Under the pieces are notes generated by a model that saw nothing but the letters and a program-made list of their open reading frames with translations, did not search any database and was not told the origin of the DNA. Positions 3,967 to 23,819 of a DNA stretch of 32,616 bases are shown here, piece by piece. The stretch covers positions 1-32,616 of the forward strand of contig JAGBUB010000033.1 of the NCBI GenBank assembly GCA_017631035.1, given 5' to 3'. The DNA comes from Alistipes sp. (lineage in GTDB: Bacteria; Bacteroidota; Bacteroidia; Bacteroidales; Rikenellaceae). Position numbers and translations under genes: made by a program. Position 1 is the first letter of the stretch. Each line of letters starts with the position of its first letter.

Positions 3967-5238
3967 ATGAACACACGAATCATTCTCAAGGGTGGCACAA
4001 TCGTTAGCGAAGGCCGTCAGACGAAGGCCGATGTGGCTATCCTCGACGGCAAGATAGCTCAGATAGCACCCTCAATAGAGACCTCTGCGGAGGATAAGAT
4101 ATACGACTGCCAGGGTTTGATTATCACCAGCGGTTTGGTTGATTTGCACGTTCACCTTCGTGAGCCCGGATTCTCTCGCAAGGAGACCATCGCCACAGGA
4201 ACTGAGGCTGCAGCGCACGGCGGTTTTACCACCGTATGTTCGATGCCCAACCTCGAGCCCGCTCCCGACACTATGGCAAATCTTCAGATGCAGATCGACA
4301 TAATTCAGCGCGACGCAGTCATCAAGGTTATGCCCTACGCCACTATCACTCGCAAGCGCCGTGGCGACGAGTTGGTGGATTTCAAGGCGCTCACACCTTA
4401 TGTCGCTGGCTTCTCTGATGATGGTAGCGGTGTACAGAGCGAAGCGGTTATGCTCGATGCCATGAAGGAGGCTGCAAAGCACGATACAATCATTGCTGCA
4501 CACTGCGAAGTGGATGAGCTGTTGCGTAAAGGTTATATCCACGACGGAGAGTATGCCAAGCTCAATGGCCATCGTGGCATCTGCTCGGAGAGCGAATGGA
4601 AGCAGGTGGAGCGCGATATTGAGTTGGTTGCACAAACAGGCTGCCGTTATCACGTTTGCCACATCTCTACAAAAGAGACCGTTGAGTTGATTCGCCAGGC
4701 GAAGGCTCGTGGCCTAAAAGTTACCTGCGAGACAGGTCCCCACTACCTCACAATGTGCGATATGGATATCAAGGAGGAGGGTCGCTTCAAGATGAATCCC
4801 CCGATTCGATCGGCAGAGGACCGCGACGCTCTTATCGCAGGTTTGCAGGATGGTACTATCGACGTGGTGGCTACCGACCACGCACCTCATACGGCCGACG
4901 AAAAGTCACGAGGCTTGGAGTTCAGCGCAATGGGCGTTGTAGGTTTGGAGACATCGTTTGCCGTAATCTACACCAAGCTCGTAAAGCAGGGCATTATCTC
5001 GCTCGAGAAGGCAATCGAGGTAATGGCCGAGGCACCCCGCCGCATATTTGGCTTGGGCGGTGGACTACGCGAGGGCGAGGCGGCCGACATTGCTGTATTC
5101 GACTTGGAGAAGAGCTTTGCGGTAGATCCCGACACATTCCTTTCGATGGGACGTAGCACTCCATTCGAGGGCTGGCAGTTGCAGGGCGAGTGCTGCCTGA
5201 CACTGGTTGACGGAAAAGTAGCATATGAAAAAAGATAA
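3967..5238 (+). CDS. pyrC: Dihydroorotase, type I
   Basis: The product has 423 residues, the normal size for bacterial type I dihydroorotase, a cytosolic zinc amidohydrolase. It closes N-carbamoyl-aspartate to dihydroorotate, the third step of UMP synthesis. Visible metal and substrate motifs are HVHLREPG (His61, His63), GGFTTVCSMPN (residues 85-95), AAHC (His179), YHVCHIS (His232) and VATDHAPHT (catalytic Asp304). The GFSDDGSGV segment (Asp151/152) has Asp where type II enzymes have a carbamylated lysine, as in Aquifex-type enzymes. The ATG lies 11 bases beyond the attenuator hairpin. carA follows after 24 bases in the same operon. Confidence 0.96.
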   Translation: MNTRIILKGGTIVSEGRQTKADVAILDGKIAQIAPSIETSAEDKIYDCQGLIITSGLVDLHVHLREPGFSRKETIATGTEAAAHGGFTTVCSMPNLEPAPDTMANLQMQIDIIQRDAVIKVMPYATITRKRRGDELVDFKALTPYVAGFSDDGSGVQSEAVMLDAMKEAAKHDTIIAAHCEVDELLRKGYIHDGEYAKLNGHRGICSESEWKQVERDIELVAQTGCRYHVCHISTKETVELIRQAKARGLKVTCETGPHYLTMCDMDIKEEGRFKMNPPIRSAEDRDALIAGLQDGTIDVVATDHAPHTADEKSRGLEFSAMGVVGLETSFAVIYTKLVKQGIISLEKAIEVMAEAPRRIFGLGGGLREGEAADIAVFDLEKSFAVDPDTFLSMGRSTPFEGWQLQGECCLTLVDGKVAYEKR

Positions 5239-5262
5239 ACGAAATAAATAAATCACAAACGA

Positions 5263-6351
5263 ATGAAACCATTTACAAAAAAGTTAGTTCTTGAGAACGG
5301 TCGCGAGTTCCTCGGCTATGGCTTTGGTGCCAACGTGGAGCGCGTGTGCGACATTGTTTTCAACACTTCTGTAGTGGGTTATCAGGAGATTCTTTCTGAC
5401 CCCTCTTGCAGCAACCAGATTGTAGTGATGGCCTATCCTTTGATTGGCAACTACGGTATCACCGACGAGGACTTCGAGTCGAAGACTCCGCAGATTGGCG
5501 GTATGGTGGTAAGAGAGTGCAACGAAAACCCCAGCAACTTCCGTTACACCAAGACCTTCTCGGAGACTTTGGAGGAGGCAGGTATTCCTTGTCTTGCAGG
5601 CGTTGACACTCGCATGCTCGTTCGCATCATCCGCGACGAGGGCTCACAGCGCGCTGCAATCGTGAATATCGACACCACTACCGAGGCTGCTCTGGAGATG
5701 ATTAAGAACACACCCCAGCCCACCGACTTGGTAACAAAGGTAAGCAGCCGCAAGGCTTGGTTCTCACGCACACCCAACCACAAGTACGACATCGTAGCTG
5801 TGGATTGCGGTATCAAGCACAACATCATCCGTTCGTTCACCAGCCGTGGTTGCAACGTAACCGTTGTACCCTACAACACCTCACTCGAGGAGATTATGGC
5901 ATTCAACCCCGATGGTCTGTTTATCTCAAACGGTCCGGGCTCACCCGAGGAGCTTACCGAGGTTATCGAGCTCATCCGAGCAGCAAAGGGTCAGATTCCT
6001 ATGTTCGGCATCTCGCTCGGTATGCAGCTCATCGCCCTGGCTTATGGCGCAAAGGTGTTCAAGATGAAGTGTGGCCACCACGGCTCACCCGCCGTGCGCA
6101 CCGTAGCTTCAGGCCGCATCGATATGACCTCGCAGAACCACGAGTACGCTATCGTTCCCGAGTCGTTGGAGGGCACAAAGCTCACCGTAACACACGAGAA
6201 TGTGTTCGACTCAACAATCGAGGGTATCGAGTGTGCTGAGGATAAGATGTACGCCCTGCAGTTCCACCCCGAGAGTGCTCCGGGTCCGCAGGATTGCTCG
6301 TACCTTTTTGATAAATTCATTAAACTGATGGAGGAGAAACAAAATGCCTAG
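5263..6351 (+). CDS. carA: Carbamoyl-phosphate synthase small (glutaminase-like) subunit with Cys-to-Ser nucleophile change
   Basis: The product has 362 residues. The N-terminal CarA-specific domain (about 1-150) includes FNTSVVGYQEILSDPS. The class I amidotransferase domain (about 172-355) contains NGPGSPEEL, MKCGHHG, SQNHEYA and LQFHPESAPGP. The partner CarB makes carbamoyl phosphate, and CarA normally supplies ammonia from glutamine using a Cys-His-Glu triad. Here the nucleophile-elbow motif reads GISLGMQ instead of GICLGHQ: Ser251, encoded by TCG at 6013-6015, replaces Cys. The residue usually His is Met254. The His and Glu of FHPES remain. A Cys four residues into MKCGHHG is not at the nucleophile position. 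Loss of the thiol predicts poor or no glutaminase activity and use of free ammonia, as in mammalian CPS I. The gene overlaps carB by 8 bases. Confidence 0.93.
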   Translation: MKPFTKKLVLENGREFLGYGFGANVERVCDIVFNTSVVGYQEILSDPSCSNQIVVMAYPLIGNYGITDEDFESKTPQIGGMVVRECNENPSNFRYTKTFSETLEEAGIPCLAGVDTRMLVRIIRDEGSQRAAIVNIDTTTEAALEMIKNTPQPTDLVTKVSSRKAWFSRTPNHKYDIVAVDCGIKHNIIRSFTSRGCNVTVVPYNTSLEEIMAFNPDGLFISNGPGSPEELTEVIELIRAAKGQIPMFGISLGMQLIALAYGAKVFKMKCGHHGSPAVRTVASGRIDMTSQNHEYAIVPESLEGTKLTVTHENVFDSTIEGIECAEDKMYALQFHPESAPGPQDCSYLFDKFIKLMEEKQNA

Positions 6352-9300
6352 AAGAACAGATATTAAGAAAGTAATGGTAATCGGCTCAGGTCCGATTGTC
6401 ATTGGTCAGGCCGCAGAGTTTGACTATGCAGGAACACAGGCGTGCTTGGCACTTAAGGAGGAGGGTTACGAGGTTATCCTTGTGAACTCAAACCCCGCAA
6501 CCATTATGACCGATACCAATATCGCCGACAAGGTATATATGGAGCCTTTGACGCTGGAGTATGTGGCAAAGATCGTTCGTTATGAGCGTCCCGATGCCAT
6601 CGTACCTGGTTTGGGTGGTCAGACAGGTTTGAACTTGGCCGTTCAGCTGGCTAAGAAGGGTATTTTGGATGAGTGCCACGTTGAGATTTTGGGTACTTCG
6701 TTCAACTCTATCGAGGAGGCCGAGGACCGCGAGCTCTTCAAGCAGTTGTGCGTTCGTATCGGTGAGCCCGTATTGCCTTCAGTGGTTGTAAACACTATGG
6801 AGGATGGTGTTAAGGCTGCCGAGGAGATTGGCTATCCCGTAGTTCTTCGTCCCGCATTTACGCTGGGTGGTACAGGTGGTGGCTTTGCCGACAACGAGGA
6901 GGAGTTGCGCGAGATTATGCGTAACGCTCTTGTTCTCTCGCCCGTACACCAGGTACTTGTAGAGAAGAGTATCAAGGGTTACAAGGAGATTGAGTTCGAG
7001 GTGATGCGTGACAAGAACGACACTGCCATCGCCATCTGTAGTATGGAGAACATCGACCCCGTAGGTATCCACACTGGAGACTCTATGGTAATCGCTCCTG
7101 CTCAGACTTTGACCGACAAGGAGTATCAACTTCTTCGTGGTAGCGCACTCAAGATTATCCGCGAGCTTAAGATTGAGGGTGGATGTAACGTGCAGTTTGC
7201 ATTGGATCCCCTCTCATTCAAGTACTATATCATCGAGGTTAACCCCCGTGTATCGCGTTCATCGGCTTTGGCATCAAAGGCCAGCGGTTTCCCCATCGCT
7301 CGCGTAACAGCAAAGATTGCCGTAGGTCTTACCTTGGACGAGATTATGATTGCCAACCGTCCCGCTTGCTTCGAGCCTGCATTGGACTACGTTGTGCTGA
7401 AGGTGGCTCGTTTCCCCTTCGACAAGTTCAGCGACGCATCGAACGAGCTCGGAACACAGATGAAGGCTACAGGTGAGGTTATGAGCATCGGCCGTACCAT
7501 CGAGGAGGGTATCTTGAAGGCTATCCGTTCACTCGAGACTGGCGTTTGCCACATCCACAACAAGAAGTTCGACGACTGGACCACTTCGCAGATGTTGGAC
7601 TACATCCGCAAGGGTACCGACGACCGCATCTACGCCATTGCACAGTTGATTCGCTTGGGCGTTGATTTGCTCATCATCTACAACCATACCAAGATCGATA
7701 TGTTGTTCCTTGAGAAATTCAAGAACATTGTCGAGATGGAGAAGGTTGTTGCCGCAAACAAGGGCTGCATCGCAACCTTGAAGGAGGCTAAGCGTATGGG
7801 CTTCAGCGATAAGTTCATCGGCCAGTTGTGGGATATGACAGAGGCTGAGATGTATGAGTTGCGTAAGAAGGAGAATGTATTCCCCGTATACAAGATTATC
7901 GACTCTTGCGCTGGCGAGATTGACACCTACGTTCCTTACTTCTACTCTACTTACGAGGCTGAGAACGAGTCAATCCGTAGCGACCGTAAGAAGATTTTGG
8001 TACTCGGCTCTGGTCCTATCCGTATCGGCCAGGGTGTAGAGTTTGACTACTCTACCGTACACGCTATCTGGACAATCAAGGAGGCTGGTTACGAGGCTAT
8101 CATCATCAACAATAACCCCGAGACCGTATCAACAGACTATACAATCAGCGACAAGCTCTACTTTGAGCCCCTCACCGTTGAGGATGTTATGAACGTTGTA
8201 GAGTTGGAGCAGCCCGAGGGTATCGTGGTATCACTCGGTGGTCAGACCGCTATCAACCTTGCAGAGCCTTTGGCTGATTTGGGTGTAAAGATTATCGGTA
8301 CAGGTATCGAGGCTATCAACAACGCCGAGGACCGCAAGTGCTTCGAGCGCATTATGAACGAGGTGGGTATCCCCCAGCCCAAGGCTAAGGCTGTAACCGA
8401 CATCGAGTCGGGTGTTGAGGCTGCCAACAACATCGGTTACCCCGTATTGGTACGTCCCAGCTTCGTGCTTGGTGGTCGTGCGATGCAGATTGTTGGTAAC
8501 GAGGAGACTCTGCGCCACTACTTGCGTTCGGCTGTTGAGATTAACGAGAAGTCGCCCGTATTGGTTGACAAATATATTCAGGGTAAGGAGTTGGAGGTAG
8601 ATGCTATCTGCGACGGCAAGGATGTATACATCCCCGGTATTATGGAGCACGTCGAGCACACAGGTATCCACTCTGGTGACTCTATCAGCGTATACCCCAC
8701 CTTCAGCGTAAGCCAGCAGGTTAAGGACACCATCATCGAGTACACTCGTCAGTTGGGTCTTGCAATCGGTATCGTTGGTCTGTTCAACATTCAGTTCATT
8801 GTTGACGAGCAGGAGAAGGTATACGTAATCGAGGTTAACCCCCGATCATCGCGTACCGTGCCCTTCCTCTCGAAGTCTACAGGCGTGCCTATGGCAAAGA
8901 TTGCCACAATGGTAATCCTCGGCCACTCGCTCAAGGAGCAGGGCATCACCGAGATTTACGGCAAGGAGAGCACACGTTGGTTCGTTAAGTCACCCGCCTT
9001 CTCATTCGCTAAGATTCGCGGTGTAGACTCATACCTCTCACCCGAGATGAAGTCTACAGGTGAGGCTATCGGTTATGACAAGAGCCTTAATCGGGCTTTA
9101 TACAAGTCGTTGCGTTCATCAGGCGTAGCTGTAGCTAACTACGGTACTATCTTCGTAACGATTGCCGATGCCGACAAGGAGCGTGCATTGCCCTTCATCC
9201 GCCGTTTCTACGACCTCGGCTTCAACATCGAGGCTACTGGCGGTACCTGCGAGTTCTTGCGTAACAACGGCATCCGCACTCGTCACCTGCTGAAGATCAG

Positions 9301-9526
9301 CGAGGGCTCAACCGAGATTTACGACGAGTTGCGTAAGGGCCACGTTACCTATGTAATCAACACTATCGACGTTAATCAGCACAGCACACGTCGCGACGGT
9401 TATGAGATTCGTCGTGCAGCGGCAGAGAACAACGTGACACTCTTCACATCGTTGGAGACTGTAAGCGTGCTCTTGAACGTATTGGAGGAGATTACATTGG
9501 GTGTTTCAACCATCGACGGTAAGTAA
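6344..9526 (+). CDS. carB: Carbamoyl-phosphate synthase large subunit
   Basis: The product has 1060 residues, close to the 1073 of E. coli CarB. It contains two homologous ATP-grasp halves. The first (about 1-400) opens with [20 protein letters not shown] and makes carboxyphosphate. The second (about 546-925) opens with [20 protein letters not shown] and makes carbamoyl phosphate. An oligomerisation segment lies between them. The C-terminal MGS-like allosteric domain starts near residue 926 ([20 protein letters not shown]) and is the usual binding site for UMP and ornithine. Both halves keep the glycine-rich loops ([12 protein letters not shown] and [11 protein letters not shown]) and the metal-binding EVNPR motifs. 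The ATG overlaps the end of carA by 8 bases, which implies coupled translation. pyrK begins one base after the stop codon. Confidence 0.97.
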   Translation: [1060 protein letters not shown]

Positions 9527-9527
9527 G

Positions 9528-10268
9528 ATGTACAAGAAAGGAATATACACTATCAAGAGTAACCATCCGCTAACGGCTGACGTATGGCGGATGGTACTCG
9601 AGGGTGATACGCAGTGGATTACACGCCCCGGTCAGTTCGTAAATATCGAGCTCGAGGGTCTGTATCTGCGTCGCCCCATCTCTATAAACGATTGGGATGA
9701 GAATACCATCACCATAATCTACAAGGTGGTAGGTCGTGGCACCGAGCAAATGACTTCGATGCAGGCTGGCGATCATCTCGACGTACTCACAGGCCTTGGC
9801 AACGGATTCGACGCCGATGTAGAGTGCCAGAAGCCTCTGTTGGTTGGCGGTGGTGTGGGCGTTCCCCCACTCTATCGTTTGGCTAAGGAGCTTATCGCAC
9901 GTGGCCGCAAGGTGAGCGTAGTGTTGGGCTTCAACACAGAGAAGGAGGTATTCTATGCCGAGGAGTTCCGCGCTTTGGGCATCGATGTATATGTATCGAC
10001 AGCCGACGGCTCGCAGGGTACAAAAGGCTTTGTAACCGACGCTATTCGCGAGAACGCCATCGACTTCGATTTCTTCTACTCGTGCGGTCCGCTACCTATG
10101 CTTAAGGCTCTGTGCGGTTGCACCGAGGTGAGTGGCGAGCTCTCGTTCGAGGAGCGTATGGGCTGTGGCTTTGGCGCTTGTATGGGTTGCAGCTGCAAGA
10201 CCCTTACAGGCAATAAGCGCATCTGCAAGGAGGGTCCCGTAATGAAACGTGAAGAGATAATTTGGTAA
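9528..10268 (+). CDS. pyrK: Dihydroorotate dehydrogenase B, iron-sulfur/FAD electron-transfer subunit
   Basis: The product has 246 residues. It passes electrons from dihydroorotate, oxidised by PyrD, to NAD+. An FAD-binding barrel carries RRPISIND (residues 48-55). The NAD-binding part has LLVGGGVGVPPLYRLAKEL (from about 104) and YSCGPLPML. A C-terminal [2Fe-2S] site is formed by Cys213, Cys218, Cys221 and Cys233 (CX4CX2CX11C, reading GCGFGACMGCSCKT then ICKEGP). The ATG at 9528, one base after the carB stop, is preferred. A GTG start at 9501 would add nine residues inside carB with no family support. The stop overlaps the start of pyrD in TAATG, typical of coupled translation. Confidence 0.95.
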   Translation: MYKKGIYTIKSNHPLTADVWRMVLEGDTQWITRPGQFVNIELEGLYLRRPISINDWDENTITIIYKVVGRGTEQMTSMQAGDHLDVLTGLGNGFDADVECQKPLLVGGGVGVPPLYRLAKELIARGRKVSVVLGFNTEKEVFYAEEFRALGIDVYVSTADGSQGTKGFVTDAIRENAIDFDFFYSCGPLPMLKALCGCTEVSGELSFEERMGCGFGACMGCSCKTLTGNKRICKEGPVMKREEIIW

Positions 10269-11200
10269 TGGAGATGAGTATGGATAAGAAATATGATTTG
10301 TCGGTAGAGTTGTGTGGCGTTAAGTTGGACAACCCCATCATCCCCGCAAGCGGCACATTCGGTTTTGGTCGCGAGCATAACGAGTTTTACGACATCGACA
10401 TCCTCGGTTCAATCTCTATCAAGGGTACTACACGTGAGGCACGCTTTGGTAACCCCACACCCCGCATCGCGGAGTGCCGTTCGGGTTTGATTAACTCGGT
10501 AGGATTGCAGAATCCTGGAGTTGATGCAGTTATCGCAAAGGAGTTGCCCGCACTACGCGAGATTTTCCACAAGCCTATCGTGGCCAACATCAGCGGTTTC
10601 TCTATTGACGAGTATCAGGAGTGCTGTGCCAAGATGGACAAGCAGGAGCAGGTGGCAATCATCGAGGTGAATGTATCGTGCCCCAATGTTCACAACGGAG
10701 GTATGAGCTTCGGTACTCAGCCCGAGATGGCTGCCGAGGTAACACGCGCAGTGAAGGCCGTAACCACCAAACCTGTATTTATCAAGCTCAGCCCCAATGT
10801 GACCGACATTGTGGCTATCGCCAAGGCTTGCGAAGAGGCGGGTGCTGATGGTATTTGCTTGATTAACACACTGCTCGGTATGCGTATCGACACCAAGCGT
10901 CGTCGCCCCGTCATAGCTAATAAGATGGGCGGCTTCTCTGGTCCGGCAATCTTCCCCGTAGCGGTACGTATGGTATATCAGGTGTCGCACGCCTGCTCAA
11001 TTCCCGTAATGGGTTGCGGTGGTGTAGAGTCGGCATCGGATGTTATCGAGATGATGATGGCAGGTGCTACTGCCGTGCAGGTAGGTGCTGCCAACCTCAA
11101 GGATCCCTACGCTTGCAAACGTATCATCGAGGCTCTTCCTGCCGAGATGGAGCGTCTGGGCATCGAGCGATTGAGCGATATTATCGGTATTGTGGAGTAA
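10268..11200 (+). CDS. pyrD: Dihydroorotate dehydrogenase B, catalytic FMN subunit
   Basis: The product has 310 residues and is a class 1B enzyme that oxidises dihydroorotate to orotate and works with PyrK. Motifs are NPIIPASGTFGFG near the N-terminus, GLQNPGVDAV, the catalytic-cysteine loop VNVSCPNV (Cys138; class 1B enzymes use Cys where class 2 uses Ser), LSGPAIFPVAVR-like FMN contacts (GFSGPAIFPVAVR) and GCGGVESASDVIEMMMAGATAVQVG, which binds the FMN phosphate. The chosen ATG at 10268 overlaps the pyrK stop codon. ATGs at 10274 and 10280 are possible alternatives and would shorten the protein by two or four residues. This is the last gene of operon 1 and is followed by a bidirectional terminator. 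Confidence 0.95.
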   Translation: MEMSMDKKYDLSVELCGVKLDNPIIPASGTFGFGREHNEFYDIDILGSISIKGTTREARFGNPTPRIAECRSGLINSVGLQNPGVDAVIAKELPALREIFHKPIVANISGFSIDEYQECCAKMDKQEQVAIIEVNVSCPNVHNGGMSFGTQPEMAAEVTRAVKAVTTKPVFIKLSPNVTDIVAIAKACEEAGADGICLINTLLGMRIDTKRRRPVIANKMGGFSGPAIFPVAVRMVYQVSHACSIPVMGCGGVESASDVIEMMMAGATAVQVGAANLKDPYACKRIIEALPAEMERLGIERLSDIIGIVE

Positions 11201-15583: not shown

Positions 15584-16285
15584 ATGAGCAATAGAGATGT
15601 AATCATTGCGTGTGACTTCGACAGTGCCGAGACCACGCTCGCTTTTCTTGATAAATTCACCGATTGCAAGCCTTTCGTAAAGATTGGTATGGAACTTTAT
15701 TACGCTGCAGGCCCCTCAATTGTTAAGGAGATTAAGGCTCGCGGCCACAAGATTTTCCTCGATCTTAAGTTGCACGATATTCCCAACACGGTAAAGAAGT
15801 CGATGGCCGTACTCTCGAAGATGGATGTTGATATGTGCAACCTGCACGCCGCTGGTACTATCGAGATGATGAAGGCTGCCCTCGAGGGCCTCACTCGCGA
15901 GGATGGCACTCGTCCCCTGCTTATCGCCGTAACTCAGCTTACATCGACAAGCGAGGAGCGTATGCAGAAGGATCTTTTGATTAACGCATCAATCAACGAT
16001 ACAATCGTTCACTACGCCAAGAATGCACAGGTGGCAGGTCTTGATGGTGTTGTTTGCTCTCCGCTGGAGGCCGGTATGGTTAAGGAGGCTTGCGGCAAGG
16101 AGTTCGTGACCGTTACTCCCGGTGTACGTTTTGCCGATGGCGAGATTGGTGACCAGGTACGCGTAACAACCCCTGCGCGCGCCAAGGAGATTGGCACCGA
16201 CTACATCGTAGTGGGTCGTCCTATCACAAGCGCTGCCGACCCCGTTGCAGCATACAAGCGTTGTATGGCAGAGTTTGCCGAGTAA
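15584..16285 (+). CDS. pyrF: Orotidine 5'-phosphate decarboxylase
   Basis: The product has 233 residues, the size of the short bacterial (group I) OMP decarboxylases. It converts OMP to UMP, the last step of the pathway. The catalytic charged network is visible as Lys33 ([10 protein letters not shown]) and the signature [13 protein letters not shown] with Asp60, Lys62 and Asp65. The phosphate-binding end has [17 protein letters not shown] and [11 protein letters not shown]. It is the first gene of operon 2. The glutaredoxin-like gene begins three bases after its stop. Confidence 0.96.
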
Positions 16286-16288
16286 AAA

Positions 16289-16549
16289 ATGAAAAAAGTA
16301 AAACTGTTTTATCTACAGCATTGCCCCTTCTGCAAGAAGGCATTTCGCTATATCGAAGAGGCAAAGTTAAAACACCCCGAGCTGGCCGACCTGGAGATTG
16401 AACTAATCGAGGAGTCGGAGCAGGCCGATGTGGCCGATAAGTATGACTACTACTATGTGCCGACCTTCTATGTCGATGGACAGAAGGTGCACGAAGGTGG
16501 CATCTATTACGAGGAGGTAGAGCAGATTTTACTCAGTTGTTTGGAATAA
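16289..16549 (+). CDS. Glutaredoxin-like thiol-disulfide protein
   Basis: The product has 86 residues with a thioredoxin-fold pattern. Strand 1 (KKVKLFYLQ) is followed directly by the redox motif CPFC (Cys12, Cys15), and a cis-proline loop YVPTF (Pro58) precedes VDGQKVHEGG. Size and motif fit glutaredoxin or a NrdH-like protein, which reduce disulfides or glutathione adducts. The gene sits three bases after pyrF and 17 bases before pyrE. It is probably cotranscribed with them, though its link to pyrimidine synthesis is unknown. Substrate and electron donor cannot be told from the sequence. Confidence 0.8.
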   Translation: MKKVKLFYLQHCPFCKKAFRYIEEAKLKHPELADLEIELIEESEQADVADKYDYYYVPTFYVDGQKVHEGGIYYEEVEQILLSCLE

Positions 16550-16566
16550 ATTAAATACTATATATT

Positions 16567-17199
16567 ATGGAAAAGAGTATTGCCAAAGACCTGCTCTCTA
16601 TCGGCGCAGTATTTTTGCGTCCCGAGCAGCCGTTCACTTGGGCCAGCGGTATCAAGAGCCCTATCTATTGCGACAACCGTCTCACACTTACTGCACCCGC
16701 CGTACGCGACAACGTGGAGAAGGGTTTGGCCGAGCTCGTTAAGACTCACTACCCCGAGTGCGAGGTATTGATGGGTACCAGCACAGCAGGTATTGCTCAC
16801 GCCGCTATCGTTGCTACTATTATGAACTTGCCGATGGGTTATGTTCGCAGTGGCGCAAAGGATCACGGCCGCACTAACCAGATTGAAGGTAAGTTGGAGA
16901 AGGGTCAGAAGGTAGTTGTAGTTGAGGACCTGATCTCAACAGGCGGTAGCTGCATCGAGGTTGTTAAGGTTCTTCGCGAGGCTGGCGCCGATGTTTTGGG
17001 TGTTGTGAGCATCTTCACCTATGGTATGAAGAAGGGCTTGGATCGTATGGCTGAGGCTGACGTTAAGAACTACTCGCTTTCAAACCTCGACGCACTCGTA
17101 GAGGCTGCAGCCGAAGAGGGTTACATCAAGCAGGAGGATTGCGCACGCATCATCGCCTTCCGTAACAATCCCTCTGACGAGAGTTGGATTAACAAATAA
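16567..17199 (+). CDS. pyrE: Orotate phosphoribosyltransferase
   Basis: The product has 210 residues. It joins orotate to PRPP to give OMP. The type I PRPP-binding motif [13 protein letters not shown] lies at residues 116-128. The flexible loop with catalytic Lys and His reads [12 protein letters not shown] (about 97-108), and the N-terminal orotate site has [15 protein letters not shown]. The length is typical. It stands between the glutaredoxin-like gene and pyrB (gap of 12 bases) in the same operon. Confidence 0.96.
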
Positions 17200-17211
17200 A
17201 CCACACCGCTT

Positions 17212-18297
17212 ATGCGACACTTAATCGATACGACCGATATTTCGGTTGCCGAGGTTGATCAAATCATCTCAACGGCACTCGATATTATTGACAACCGCGA
17301 GAAATATAGCCAGGCATGCAAGGGTAAGAAGCTCGCTACGCTCTTCTATGAGCCTAGTACTCGCACACGTCTGAGCTTCACATCAGCAATGATGGAGTTG
17401 GGCGGCAATGTGCTCGGTTTCTCGGATGCCGCCTCATCGTCGGTATCGAAGGGTGAGACCGTAGCCGACACTGTGCGTGTTATTGGTTGCTTTGCCGATA
17501 TCATAGCTATGCGCCACAGCAAGGAGGGTGCTCCGCTGGTGGCTTCGCACTATGCCGATGTACCCATCATCAATGCTGGTGATGGTAGCCACGCCCACCC
17601 CACACAGACTCTGACCGACCTTTTGACCATCCGTCGCGAGAAGGGTCGCTTGGATAACCTCACAATTGGTTTCTGTGGCGATTTGAAGTTTGGCCGCACG
17701 GTACACTCGCTCATTAAGGCTATGTCGCGCTACGAGAATATCAACGTAGTGCTCATCGCCCCCGAGGAGTTGCGTCTGCCTTCATACATCCGTCGCGAGG
17801 TGTGCGACAAGAACAATGTTCCCACACGTGAGGTATCGACAATGGAGGAGGTATTGCCCGAGTTGGATATCCTCTATATGACACGTGTGCAGAAGGAGCG
17901 TTTCTTGGACGAGGAGGAGTTCGAGCGTCTGAAGGATAGTTTCATCCTCAATCCCGAGCGTATGAAGCTTGCCAAGGAGGATATGATTGTTCTGCACCCT
18001 CTGCCCCGCGTGAACGAGATTACCCGCGATGTGGACAACGACCCCAGAGCGGCTTACTTCCGTCAGGTGGAGAATGGTAAGTTCGTGCGTATGGCACTCA
18101 TCTACACTCTATTGCAGTGGGCTAATGAGCGTCCTGCCGATAAGATAACACCGCGTCTTGGCAACGAGCTCGTACGCAACGACTGGCGATGCAGCAATCG
18201 TCAGTGTGTATCGGCAACCGAAGATGTCGACCACCTCTTCCACCAGACCGAGGATGGCTATCGCTGTGCATACTGCGAGGCTCGAGTAAAACATTAA
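17212..18297 (+). CDS. pyrB: Aspartate carbamoyltransferase fused to a C-terminal PyrI-like zinc module
   Basis: The product has 361 residues, about 50 more than a plain catalytic chain. The catalytic part (about 1-310) has the carbamoyl-phosphate motif STRTR (49-53), the mobile-loop Lys80 (SVSKGE), [10 protein letters not shown] (129-138), the aspartate-site loop [10 protein letters not shown] and HPLPRVNEI. It transfers carbamoyl phosphate to aspartate. The tail carries four cysteines: Cys327 and Cys332 (CSNRQC), then Cys352 and Cys355 (CAYC). This is the CX4C...CX2C pattern of the zinc domain of the regulatory chain PyrI, which contacts the catalytic chain. The PyrI nucleotide-binding domain is absent and no pyrI follows; purT begins 18 bases later. 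The enzyme may thus have its structural zinc domain built in while lacking CTP/ATP control. Confidence 0.93.
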
Positions 18298-18315: not shown

Positions 18316-19506
18316 ATGGTAAAAATAGGAACACCGATGACCACCGTTGGCAAGAAGGCTATTTTGTGTGGTTCGGGTGAGTTAGGCAAGGAGGTTGCGA
18401 TTGAGTTGCAACGCTTTGGCGTCGAGGTAATTGCCCTCGACAAGTATGAGAATGCTCCCGCAATGCAGGTAGCACATCGTTCGTATGTGTTGTCGATGTT
18501 GGATGGTGAGCGTCTGCGTGAGATTATCGAGAAGGAGAAACCCGATTATATTATTCCCGAGGTAGAGGCTATCGCTACTCCCACACTCGTAGAGTTGGAG
18601 AAGGAGGGCTACAACGTAATCCCTACAGCTAACGCTACCCTGCTTACAATGAACCGCAAGGGCATTCGTCAGCTGGCAGCCGAGACCCTTGGCATCAAGA
18701 CCTCACCCTACCGTTTTGCAGCTACACGTGAGGAGTTCGACGCCGCTATTGCTGAGATTGGCACACCTTGCGTTGTGAAGCCCATTATGTCATCATCGGG
18801 CCACGGTCAGAGCGTATGCAAGACAGTAGAGGGAGCCGACAACTCTTGGAAGATTGCCCAGGAGGGTGGTCGTGCAGGAGGTGGCGAGGTTATCGTTGAA
18901 GGTTTTGTTAAGTTCGACTACGAGATTACTCTCTTGACCGTACGTCACTCGGGTGGTACACTCTTCCTCAACCCCATTGGCCACCATCAGGTGGATGGCG
19001 ACTACCGCGAGTCTTGGCAGCCTCAGCCTATGAGCGAGAGTGCTATTGCTCAGGCACAGGATATTGCTAAGAAGGTAACCGATGCTCTTGGTGGCTACGG
19101 TATCTTTGGTGTAGAGTTGTTCGTATGCGGCGATGAGGTACTCTTCAGTGAAGTATCACCCCGTCCGCACGACACAGGTATGGTTACAATGATTTCGCAG
19201 GATTTGTCGGAGTTCGCTTTGCACGCCCGCGCCGTTTTGGGTCTTCCCATCCCCTCAATTAACTTCTACGGCCCGAGTGCATCGAAGGCTGTTGTTGTAG
19301 AGGGTGATAGCGACAAGGTTGTATTCTCTAACCTTGAGGAGGTACTCGCCGAGCCTAACGTTCAGGTGCGTATCTTCGGTAAGCCCGAGGTTAAGGGTCA
19401 CCGCCGTATGGGCGTGATCTTGGCTCGTGGCGAGAATGTGGAGGATGCTCTTGCAAAGGCTGAGAAGGCATACTCAACACTCAAGGTAGAAGTATTGCCA
19501 CGATAG
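18316..19506 (+). CDS. purT: Formate-dependent phosphoribosylglycinamide formyltransferase
   Basis: The product has 396 residues, the normal PurT length. It uses formate and ATP to formylate GAR in purine synthesis, without folate. It is an ATP-grasp protein. The N-terminal pre-ATP-grasp part has [20 protein letters not shown]. The central part has [15 protein letters not shown] and [19 protein letters not shown]. The metal-binding end has FGVELFV and [23 protein letters not shown] near the C-terminus is typical. It is the last gene of operon 2, so one purine step is encoded together with the pyrimidine genes. A bidirectional terminator follows. Confidence 0.95.
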
Positions 19507-22276: not shown

Positions 22277-23074
22277 ATGCGTATCACGGTCCACATACTG
22301 CATCTATGCCATTGGCTAATGCTCGGTCTTGGCATCACACTTGCATCGTGCAAGCATTTCGACGAGCCTGAACCAAAGGTTGAGATACCACCCACACCAA
22401 ACATATCCATTGCCGACCTGCGCTTGTTGGTTGACCAACAACGCGTAACTATCGATGAGCCGATTATAATCGCAGGCTACGTTACAACAAGTGACCAGGA
22501 GTCGAACTTCTACCGTTCGTTCTATATTGAGGATGGCTCGGGCGGTGCGGAGGTTATGGCAGGATTATACGACCTACACAACATCTACCCTGTGGGATCA
22601 TATGTAAGTATCTCTCTCGAAGGATGTGCCGTGGGCCTTCACAACTCGGTGTTGCAGATTGGCACAGAGTCGGCATCATATAGTCAATACCCTACCGACT
22701 ACTTTGCATCAAGAGTTCTACTCGACAGACACGTAAAGGGGTATAACAAATTCTCCTCGGTAGCACCTAAACCGATATCATTCAGCGACTTTTCGCCCTC
22801 GCTTTGCGGATGTTTGATCAATATGCACGATTTGCAGTTTGTATATAACGCCACCGAAGAGCAATCTCAAAAGTGGAGCGGCTACAGCATATTTGCCGAC
22901 CACGATGGTAACGCCATAGCAGTATACACATCATCGTCGGCCAGCTACGCCCACAAGAGCATCCCCTTGGAGCGGGTGAATGTCACCGGCATATTGCAAT
23001 ATGGCGATGTGGAGGGCGAAGATATGTACATAATAAAGATGCGTTATGAGAAGGATTGTATGCTTGCTGACTAA
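22277..23074 (+). CDS. DUF5689-type lipoprotein (first of a tandem pair)
   Basis: The product has 265 residues. It starts with a lipoprotein signal peptide with lipobox LASC (Cys25). The residues after the Cys (CKHFDEPEPK) are charged and acidic, as in the Bacteroidota surface-export signal. The core holds the DUF5689 pattern: SIADLRLLVDQQ, IAGYVTTSDQESNFYRSFYI and DGSGGAEVM, then an OB-like strand region ending in GDVEGEDMYIIKM. DUF5689 proteins are outer-membrane lipoproteins often encoded beside TonB receptors. A role in binding a ligand is inferred. The last 29 bases overlap the next gene, a paralogue. Confidence 0.78.
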   Translation: MRITVHILHLCHWLMLGLGITLASCKHFDEPEPKVEIPPTPNISIADLRLLVDQQRVTIDEPIIIAGYVTTSDQESNFYRSFYIEDGSGGAEVMAGLYDLHNIYPVGSYVSISLEGCAVGLHNSVLQIGTESASYSQYPTDYFASRVLLDRHVKGYNKFSSVAPKPISFSDFSPSLCGCLINMHDLQFVYNATEEQSQKWSGYSIFADHDGNAIAVYTSSSASYAHKSIPLERVNVTGILQYGDVEGEDMYIIKMRYEKDCMLAD

Positions 23075-23819
23075 CATACTCCTGTTACTCATCGCAGGAG
23101 GTTGCTCCGACGCCACATTGGGCCAGTACAACGATCGTCCCAAAGGTAGAATATCGATTGCTCACCTAAAAACAATGGCCAAGAGTGCATCGGCGACCAT
23201 CGTCGATGACATTTCAATCGAAGGCTACGTTGTAGCCAATGATCTGTTTGGCGAATACTACAAGTCAATTATCATAAGCGACGCATCGGGTGGTGTAGAG
23301 GTTAGTGTTGACCTACTAGATACTGCTACCGAATTTCCCATATCGGCTCGTGTAGTGATACACTGCTCAGGTCTGGCGATAGGCTCAAATGCCGGACGTC
23401 TGGTATTAGGAGCACAACCCGAAGCGGAATACACCATTGACCGAATCCCCAGGGATGAAATATCTCGTTATATATCAGTCGATAAGAGTAATCCTCAGGC
23501 AATAAAGGCTACTCCGCTCACCATAGACGAGCTCACCGCAGCCCACATCGGCAACTACATAGTAATCAAATGCCTAAGCTTTGGCGACCAGGCGGGTAAG
23601 GCGTGGTGTGAACGAGACCAACTGACGGGCAAACACATCACTACCCAACGCACAGCATACGACAGAAATGGACAAGAGATTGCCATCCGCATCATATCGA
23701 CCTGCGACTACCGTGAAGAGTCCATTCCCTCGGGCGAGGGCGATATATATGGCATTGTGGAGTGTTTTAACGGGGAATACTCGCTACGCATCGTAAATCA
23801 CAGAATAATATTCCAATAG
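23046..23819 (+). CDS. DUF5689-type lipoprotein (second of a tandem pair)
   Basis: The product has 257 residues, with signal peptide and lipobox IAGGC (Cys20). It has the same fold pattern as the previous gene: ISIAHLKTM, IEGYVVANDLFGEYYKSIII, DASGGVEVSVDLLD and a C-terminal strand region (GDIYGIVECFNGEYSLRIVN). It starts 29 bases inside the upstream gene, so translation is probably coupled. The two proteins differ widely in sequence. The pair therefore looks like an old duplication with divergent ligands, not a recent copy. A bidirectional terminator follows, and obgE lies on the opposite strand. Confidence 0.78.
   Translation: MRRIVCLLTNILLLLIAGGCSDATLGQYNDRPKGRISIAHLKTMAKSASATIVDDISIEGYVVANDLFGEYYKSIIISDASGGVEVSVDLLDTATEFPISARVVIHCSGLAIGSNAGRLVLGAQPEAEYTIDRIPRDEISRYISVDKSNPQAIKATPLTIDELTAAHIGNYIVIKCLSFGDQAGKAWCERDQLTGKHITTQRTAYDRNGQEIAIRIISTCDYREESIPSGEGDIYGIVECFNGEYSLRIVNHRIIFQ

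Follow-up and report, generated by a model that had tools for sequence, protein, structure and literature searches.

A PyrI-type zinc module without the allosteric domain, fused to aspartate carbamoyltransferase in the Alistipes group

Known classes of aspartate carbamoyltransferase

Aspartate carbamoyltransferase (ATCase), a textbook allosteric enzyme that opens the pyrimidine pathway, occurs in bacteria in three classes as outlined in PMC6022934 and, similarly, in PMC4581275. Class A works with dihydroorotase, class B with regulatory subunits that may or may not be fused to the catalytic chain, and class C, in the account of PMC6022934, consists of the catalytic trimer only, with no zinc domain. 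The protein described here is encoded in a 32,616-nucleotide stretch of DNA from the gut bacterium Alistipes sp. (contig JAGBUB010000033.1, referred to as the window). By its domain content, it appears to have half of the class B partner and to fit fully into none of classes A, B, and C. The PyrI allosteric domain (PF01948) that defines class B is absent, a module derived from the regulatory chain sets it apart from class C, and a dihydroorotase-like gene in the window offers a possible link to class A.

The E. coli class B enzyme, a PyrB/PyrI dodecamer, shares with it the catalytic chain, the order of the Cys4 zinc domain, and, for the most part, the equivalents of Asn111 and Glu142. In the Alistipes protein, by contrast, a single chain takes the place of the two, the nucleotide-binding domain is missing, and residues at the Lys139 and Lys143 equivalents are almost never basic. 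In Thermotoga maritima, the regulatory part is likewise fused to PyrB in one polypeptide, which is reportedly allosteric, going by a paper title; a domain-search control found both PyrI domains there, whereas the Alistipes protein has the zinc domain only. Another Bacteroidales genome (G338, L063 1480-2883) likewise encodes a complete fusion, a 468-aa PyrB-PyrI protein that contains both PyrI domains. The Bacillus subtilis class C enzyme is an unregulated trimer, which we would also expect the Alistipes enzyme to be, although the latter carries a zinc module. Work from the Schachman laboratory is said to have found that the zinc portion of PyrI, as a free fragment of 70 residues, binds to the E. 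coli catalytic trimer and changes it. In both cases a zinc domain would act on the trimer without the allosteric domain, but the fragment formed a laboratory complex in trans, whereas the Alistipes arrangement is natural, in cis, and near-universal in the genus. Among the matches listed in a search of full-text literature, judged by title or abstract and with most subscription papers outside its scope, no paper describing a zinc-only fusion was found, and the architecture may already be listed in domain databases.

Table 1. Features of the fused pyrB gene and its neighbors in the window
Feature	Coordinates	Strand	Basis or remark
pyrB fused with PyrI-type zinc module, 361 aa	17212..18297	+	translation, Pfam, NCBIfam
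catalytic ATCase part, residues 1-301 (OTCace_N + OTCace)	17212..18114	+	TIGR00670, Pfam
linker, residues 302-325	18115..18186	+	0/24 columns invariant (77 proteins), dN/dS 0.168
PyrI_C zinc module, residues 326-361	18187..18294	+	Cys codon starts 18190, 18205, 18265, 18274
pyrE	16567..17199	+	NCBIfam; directly upstream of fused pyrB
purT	18316..19506	+	NCBIfam; directly downstream of fused pyrB, no pyrI between
pyrF	15584..16285	+	Pfam, NCBIfam
dihydroorotase-like gene, carA, carB, pyrK-like gene, pyrD (remaining UMP pathway)	3967..11200	+	

Domain architecture of the fused protein

The ATCase equivalog model TIGR00670 matches the 361-residue translation over the full catalytic length (350.1 bits, residues 2-301, cut-off 236.95), and Pfam places OTCace_N and OTCace on residues 2-141 and 149-299. 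The tail matches PyrI_C (PF02748) on residues 326-360 at 8.4e-8, with 32.4 bits against a curated cut-off of 23.4 (36.7 bits in a six-frame search). PF01948 was not found in the protein by Pfam. Two NCBIfam PyrI models match the tail weakly (6.5e-6 and 3.5e-4), far under their cut-offs.

The first-pass annotation had described Cys327/332/352/355 as CX4C and CX2C pairs in PyrI order, separated by a shorter gap than in PyrI. The translation bears out both points, as the distance from the second to the third cysteine is 20 compared with 24 in E. coli PyrI (NC_000913.3). Its assignment of the tail to the PyrI zinc-domain family is upheld by the Pfam match above, and the reading that the allosteric domain is missing and that purT follows directly also stands, with purT starting 18 bases past the stop codon.

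Further comparisons point to the same family. Searched against PDB sequences, a 13-row profile of the last 78 residues gave 15 matches at E<=1. The best 12 are ATCase regulatory chains, matched on zinc-domain residues (5.8e-7 to 0.0067), and the last three are catalytic chains (E 0.36-0.96). In hhalign, the fused tails align on columns 102-146 of standard Bacteroidales PyrI with a probability of 97.4 (E 1.4e-11). Against a profile of 25 standard Bacteroidales PyrIs, 76 distinct fused tails reach a median of 23.45 bits (9.9-35.5). Shuffled tails with fixed cysteine positions (1520 shuffles, 1456 scored) have a median of -1.0 and a maximum of 15.1 bits, so that the two distributions overlap at the edge while their bulk is separate. 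The match of the tail to the PyrI zinc domain exceeds chance. Identification of the tail as a PyrI zinc domain is well supported by Pfam, profile-profile, and PDB-sequence comparison and, weakly, by NCBIfam, and we infer that it binds zinc.

Distribution across genomes

The fusion is a lineage trait of the Alistipes group. The family was sampled with 150 genomes, of which 139 contain PyrI_C and 63 PF01948. Fused PyrB is present in 78 of the 85 genomes of Alistipes and genus g20 of the same family, the window's own genome included; per-genus tallies were counted by hand from the domain-search lists. Within Alistipes, where the fusion is near-universal, 56 of 62 genomes (own included) are of the fused type, three have a standard pyrB and pyrI (G104, G108, G121), one has a tail-less PyrB (G126), and two gave no PyrB match (G139, G148). 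One of the 56, G102, lacks a Pfam PyrI_C match yet ends in a short tail that shows the Cys4 pattern. Genus g20 contributes 22 fused genomes out of 23, the remaining one (G098) being without a convincing PyrB. Another fused PyrB (L135, G086) has a frame of only 229 aa within a long contig, with its N-terminal part outside the frame, reflecting either an assembly error or real damage.

A separate pyrI, raised in the first-pass annotation as an alternative source of regulation, was sought and none was found. PF01948 occurs in 19 of the 20 other genera of the family sample and in none of the 78 fused-type genomes at E<=0.001, many of them 98-99% complete. The window's own genome gave nothing even at E<=10, which is weak evidence because that genome is only 57% complete.

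In a sample of 247 Bacteroidales genomes from 166 genera, PyrI_C was detected in 232, PF01948 in 230, and both in 229 (the PyrI_C match frame was seen for 150 rows; 21 genomes were re-examined and 19 matched). PyrI_C without PF01948 was confined to the window's own genome and two of g20, the only three members of the fused group in that sample. In the phylum sample, PyrI_C was found in 4 of 296. Named records were represented by the best 80 of 534 relatives, of which 78 had a complete ORF and 73 were aligned with the window protein, five being left out. These records overlap in assemblies with the genome samples, and the two sets are not summed.

Origin of the catalytic domain and of the fusion

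The catalytic domain is Clostridia-like and not of the native Bacteroidales type. For the PyrB tree, 66 loci were chosen and one without PyrB (L018) was dropped. Among the resulting 65 rows, 30 fused rows group with the tail-less G126, Lachnospira eligens, one viral contig, two f2 genomes, and Acetoanaerobium, apart from native Bacteroidales PyrBs (support 97/92). The two available Clostridia PyrBs, with which the domain groups and one of which is that of Acetoanaerobium, are the only named ones in the tree and too few to show a donor. PyrB of L. eligens is 64% identical to the window protein, with no pyrI seen within 8.9 kb, and the two f2 genomes carry a separate PyrI. In genus g23 of another Bacteroidales family (L051, L052), a PyrB 61% identical to the window's is accompanied by a separate short PyrI that we take to be Clostridia-like. 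Scans of viral contigs with Acetoanaerobium PyrB, f2 PyrB, and f2 PyrI returned no relatives, and a further scan with A2 yielded 10 loci, where no match extends past residue 305.

Constraint tests used 63 rows, without the long L219 and L226. Origin from a native Bacteroidales PyrB, which required 30 fused and 25 native rows to form one group together with the tail-less one, was rejected at p-AU 0.0013, and a single clade of fused rows and Acetoanaerobium at 0.00036; these values are optimistic because both groups were chosen after the first tree had been seen.

Acetoanaerobium noterae encodes a PyrB of 357 aa whose tail matches PyrI_C (1.2e-8). Its 2.6-Mb record has no PF01948 match above the cut-off, only two sub-threshold ones (E 0.17 and 0.40), and the gene that follows its fused pyrB resembles a dihydroorotase gene on visual inspection. 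Rejection of the one-clade constraint favors two origins, and on thin sampling the Acetoanaerobium fusion is probably of separate origin. A single origin followed by later losses may also be compatible with that rejection.

More of the pathway cluster looks displaced, since the window CarB (6344-9523) is 79-95% identical to CarB of nine genomes of its own genus (eight fused-type and G126) but 40-43% identical to that of other Rikenellaceae genera, three standard-type genomes of its own genus, and g20 (28 genomes searched, 26 with any match). In a quick CarB tree, ignoring two wrong-frame picks (L236, L237), G126 nests inside its own genus (SH-aLRT 96), which suggests that G126 lost its tail. 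The PyrB tree disagrees and places G126 outside all fused rows (99/87) on a long branch of 0.59; read literally, this would put the fusion after the split of G126.

Conservation of the tail and its contact residues

The pattern CX4C-X15-23-CX2C is kept in all 78 fused proteins, among them the partial frames L097 and L135, and PyrI_C matches 74 of 74 proteins, namely the window's and 73 from the named records (best 80 of 534 relatives). Seven columns of residues 326-361 are invariant among 77 proteins (the partial frame L135 left out), comprising the four cysteines, Glu337, Arg351, and Tyr354, while the linker between catalytic part and tail varies in both sequence and length. Across 144 pairs at 90-100% identity, drawn from the window gene and 36 chosen named-record genes, dN/dS is 0.032 for the catalytic part and 0.060 for the zinc module. 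The lower value of the module relative to the linker (Table 1) suggests that the tail is under selection; as the pairs have branches in common, these figures are descriptive, with no statistical test attached. The tail-less PyrB of G126 keeps 119 of the 122 positions invariant across 76 fused rows, which argues that the tail is dispensable.

In the R state of the E. coli enzyme, a bond joins PyrI Asn111 to catalytic Glu109 (PMC6056424). According to PMC6981877, Asn111, Asn113, Glu142, and Lys143 lie at the interface, and mutating them has effects on feedback or the T state. Of the 78 fused tails, 75 have Asn at the Asn111 equivalent; at the Glu142 equivalent, 69 have Glu and 6 have Asp. Among 77 fused catalytic parts, Glu109 corresponds to Glu in 71 and to Asp in 6. 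By comparison, Asn113 is matched by Asn in only 2 of 78 tails and Lys143 by Lys in none; a basic residue stands at the Lys139 equivalent in 0 and at the Lys143 equivalent in 1 of 78. Among 28 standard PyrIs, Asn111 is invariant (28/28), Asn113 is Asn in just one, and Lys143 is Lys in 26 (25 by script, in which the pattern slipped register on L059). Both true exceptions are PyrIs of f2, so the loss of Lys143 may predate the fusion and have been inherited. Glu109 is also kept in tail-less Lachnospira-type PyrBs and is therefore no proof of docking. For the same reason, the change of Glu109 to Ala in the tail-less G126 was dropped as proof of docking, the G126 protein being on average ~67% identical to the fused rows. 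The contact residues as aligned fit docking without proving it.

Proposed role of the zinc module and alternative explanations

We propose, at a probability of roughly 60%, that the zinc domain docks on its own catalytic trimer and stabilizes or activates it without CTP/ATP feedback. The catalytic chain would bear the regulatory-chain zinc domain on a variable linker of ~24 residues, with no nucleotide-binding domain. The zinc domain would then dock on its own or a neighboring chain of the trimer, at the site that the PyrI zinc domain occupies in the E. coli enzyme, and the docked domain would stabilize or activate the trimer. As nothing in it corresponds to the allosteric domains that take up nucleotides and connect one trimer to another, the enzyme would be expected to lack CTP/ATP feedback and to show little cooperativity, and the Alistipes ATCase is probably free of feedback control. 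We infer the docking site, the effect on stability or activity, and the loss of feedback from homology, conservation, and the precedent of the free zinc fragment.

A first alternative is that the tails cross to a second trimer and join two trimers as a hexamer in place of PyrI dimers, perhaps with some cooperativity. In E. coli, residues at the zinc-domain interface have been linked both to feedback and to the balance of T and R states (PMC6981877, PMC6056424). The variable linker is compatible with such swapping, but no tail retains the Lys143 equivalent. Bridging in class B is carried out by dimers of the allosteric domain, which is absent here, and we regard this arrangement as unlikely.

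The tail could also serve as a docking handle for a pathway protein, dihydroorotase or CarAB, in a channeling complex resembling class A. Upstream of the fused pyrB, the window encodes a dihydroorotase-like protein, CarA, and CarB, and the gene next to fused pyrB in Acetoanaerobium fits this picture. The conserved tail residues nevertheless correspond to those of PyrI's zinc domain, a domain known to partner with PyrB, and three of the five g20 genomes tested (G019, G037, G053; each 99% complete) are of the fused type yet without a full CarB match, which leaves such a handle rather improbable.

The tail-less PyrB of one Alistipes genome would suit a scar without function, left when a deletion brought pyrB and the end of pyrI together, but retention of all four cysteines in every fused protein and a dN/dS below that of the linker make a scar very improbable. 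Least probable of all is a separately encoded allosteric domain, diverged past Pfam detection, that still exerts control by binding to the zinc module: far relatives can escape a family profile and absence from an incomplete genome counts for little, yet PF01948 was found in none of the 78 fused-type genomes at E<=0.001 and Acetoanaerobium offers only sub-threshold matches.

Should the self-docked module stabilize or activate the trimer as proposed, this natural form would separate the docking and sensing roles of PyrI. It would also show a route by which feedback control can go while the structural part stays. More tentatively, and at somewhat less than even odds, such zinc-clamped trimers may represent a further architectural ATCase class that arose at least twice (in the Alistipes group and in Acetoanaerobium) by dropping the nucleotide-sensing domain and keeping the zinc domain as an in-cis activator or stabilizer; this would show that the PyrI zinc domain has a role independent of allostery. 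For annotation, it matters that the fused protein passes the plain PyrB model TIGR00670.

Further observations in and around the window

An 86-aa ORF between pyrF and pyrE (16289-16549, +) has a CPFC motif and is presumably glutaredoxin-like, judging by eye from that motif. A similar ORF adjoins pyrE in the tail-less G126 (L050 3018-3278). A candidate PyrE-PyrB fusion, suggested by open frames of 598 and 630 aa (L043, L193, L189), was rejected, as the letters 5' of the PyrB start do not encode PyrE and look like a wrong-frame reading. The Rfam scan of the window gave no match at gathering scores. A full-length CarB match was present in two of the five g20 genomes tested. Further downstream in the window, two adjoining ORFs for DUF5689 proteins (22277-23819) overlap by 29 bases.
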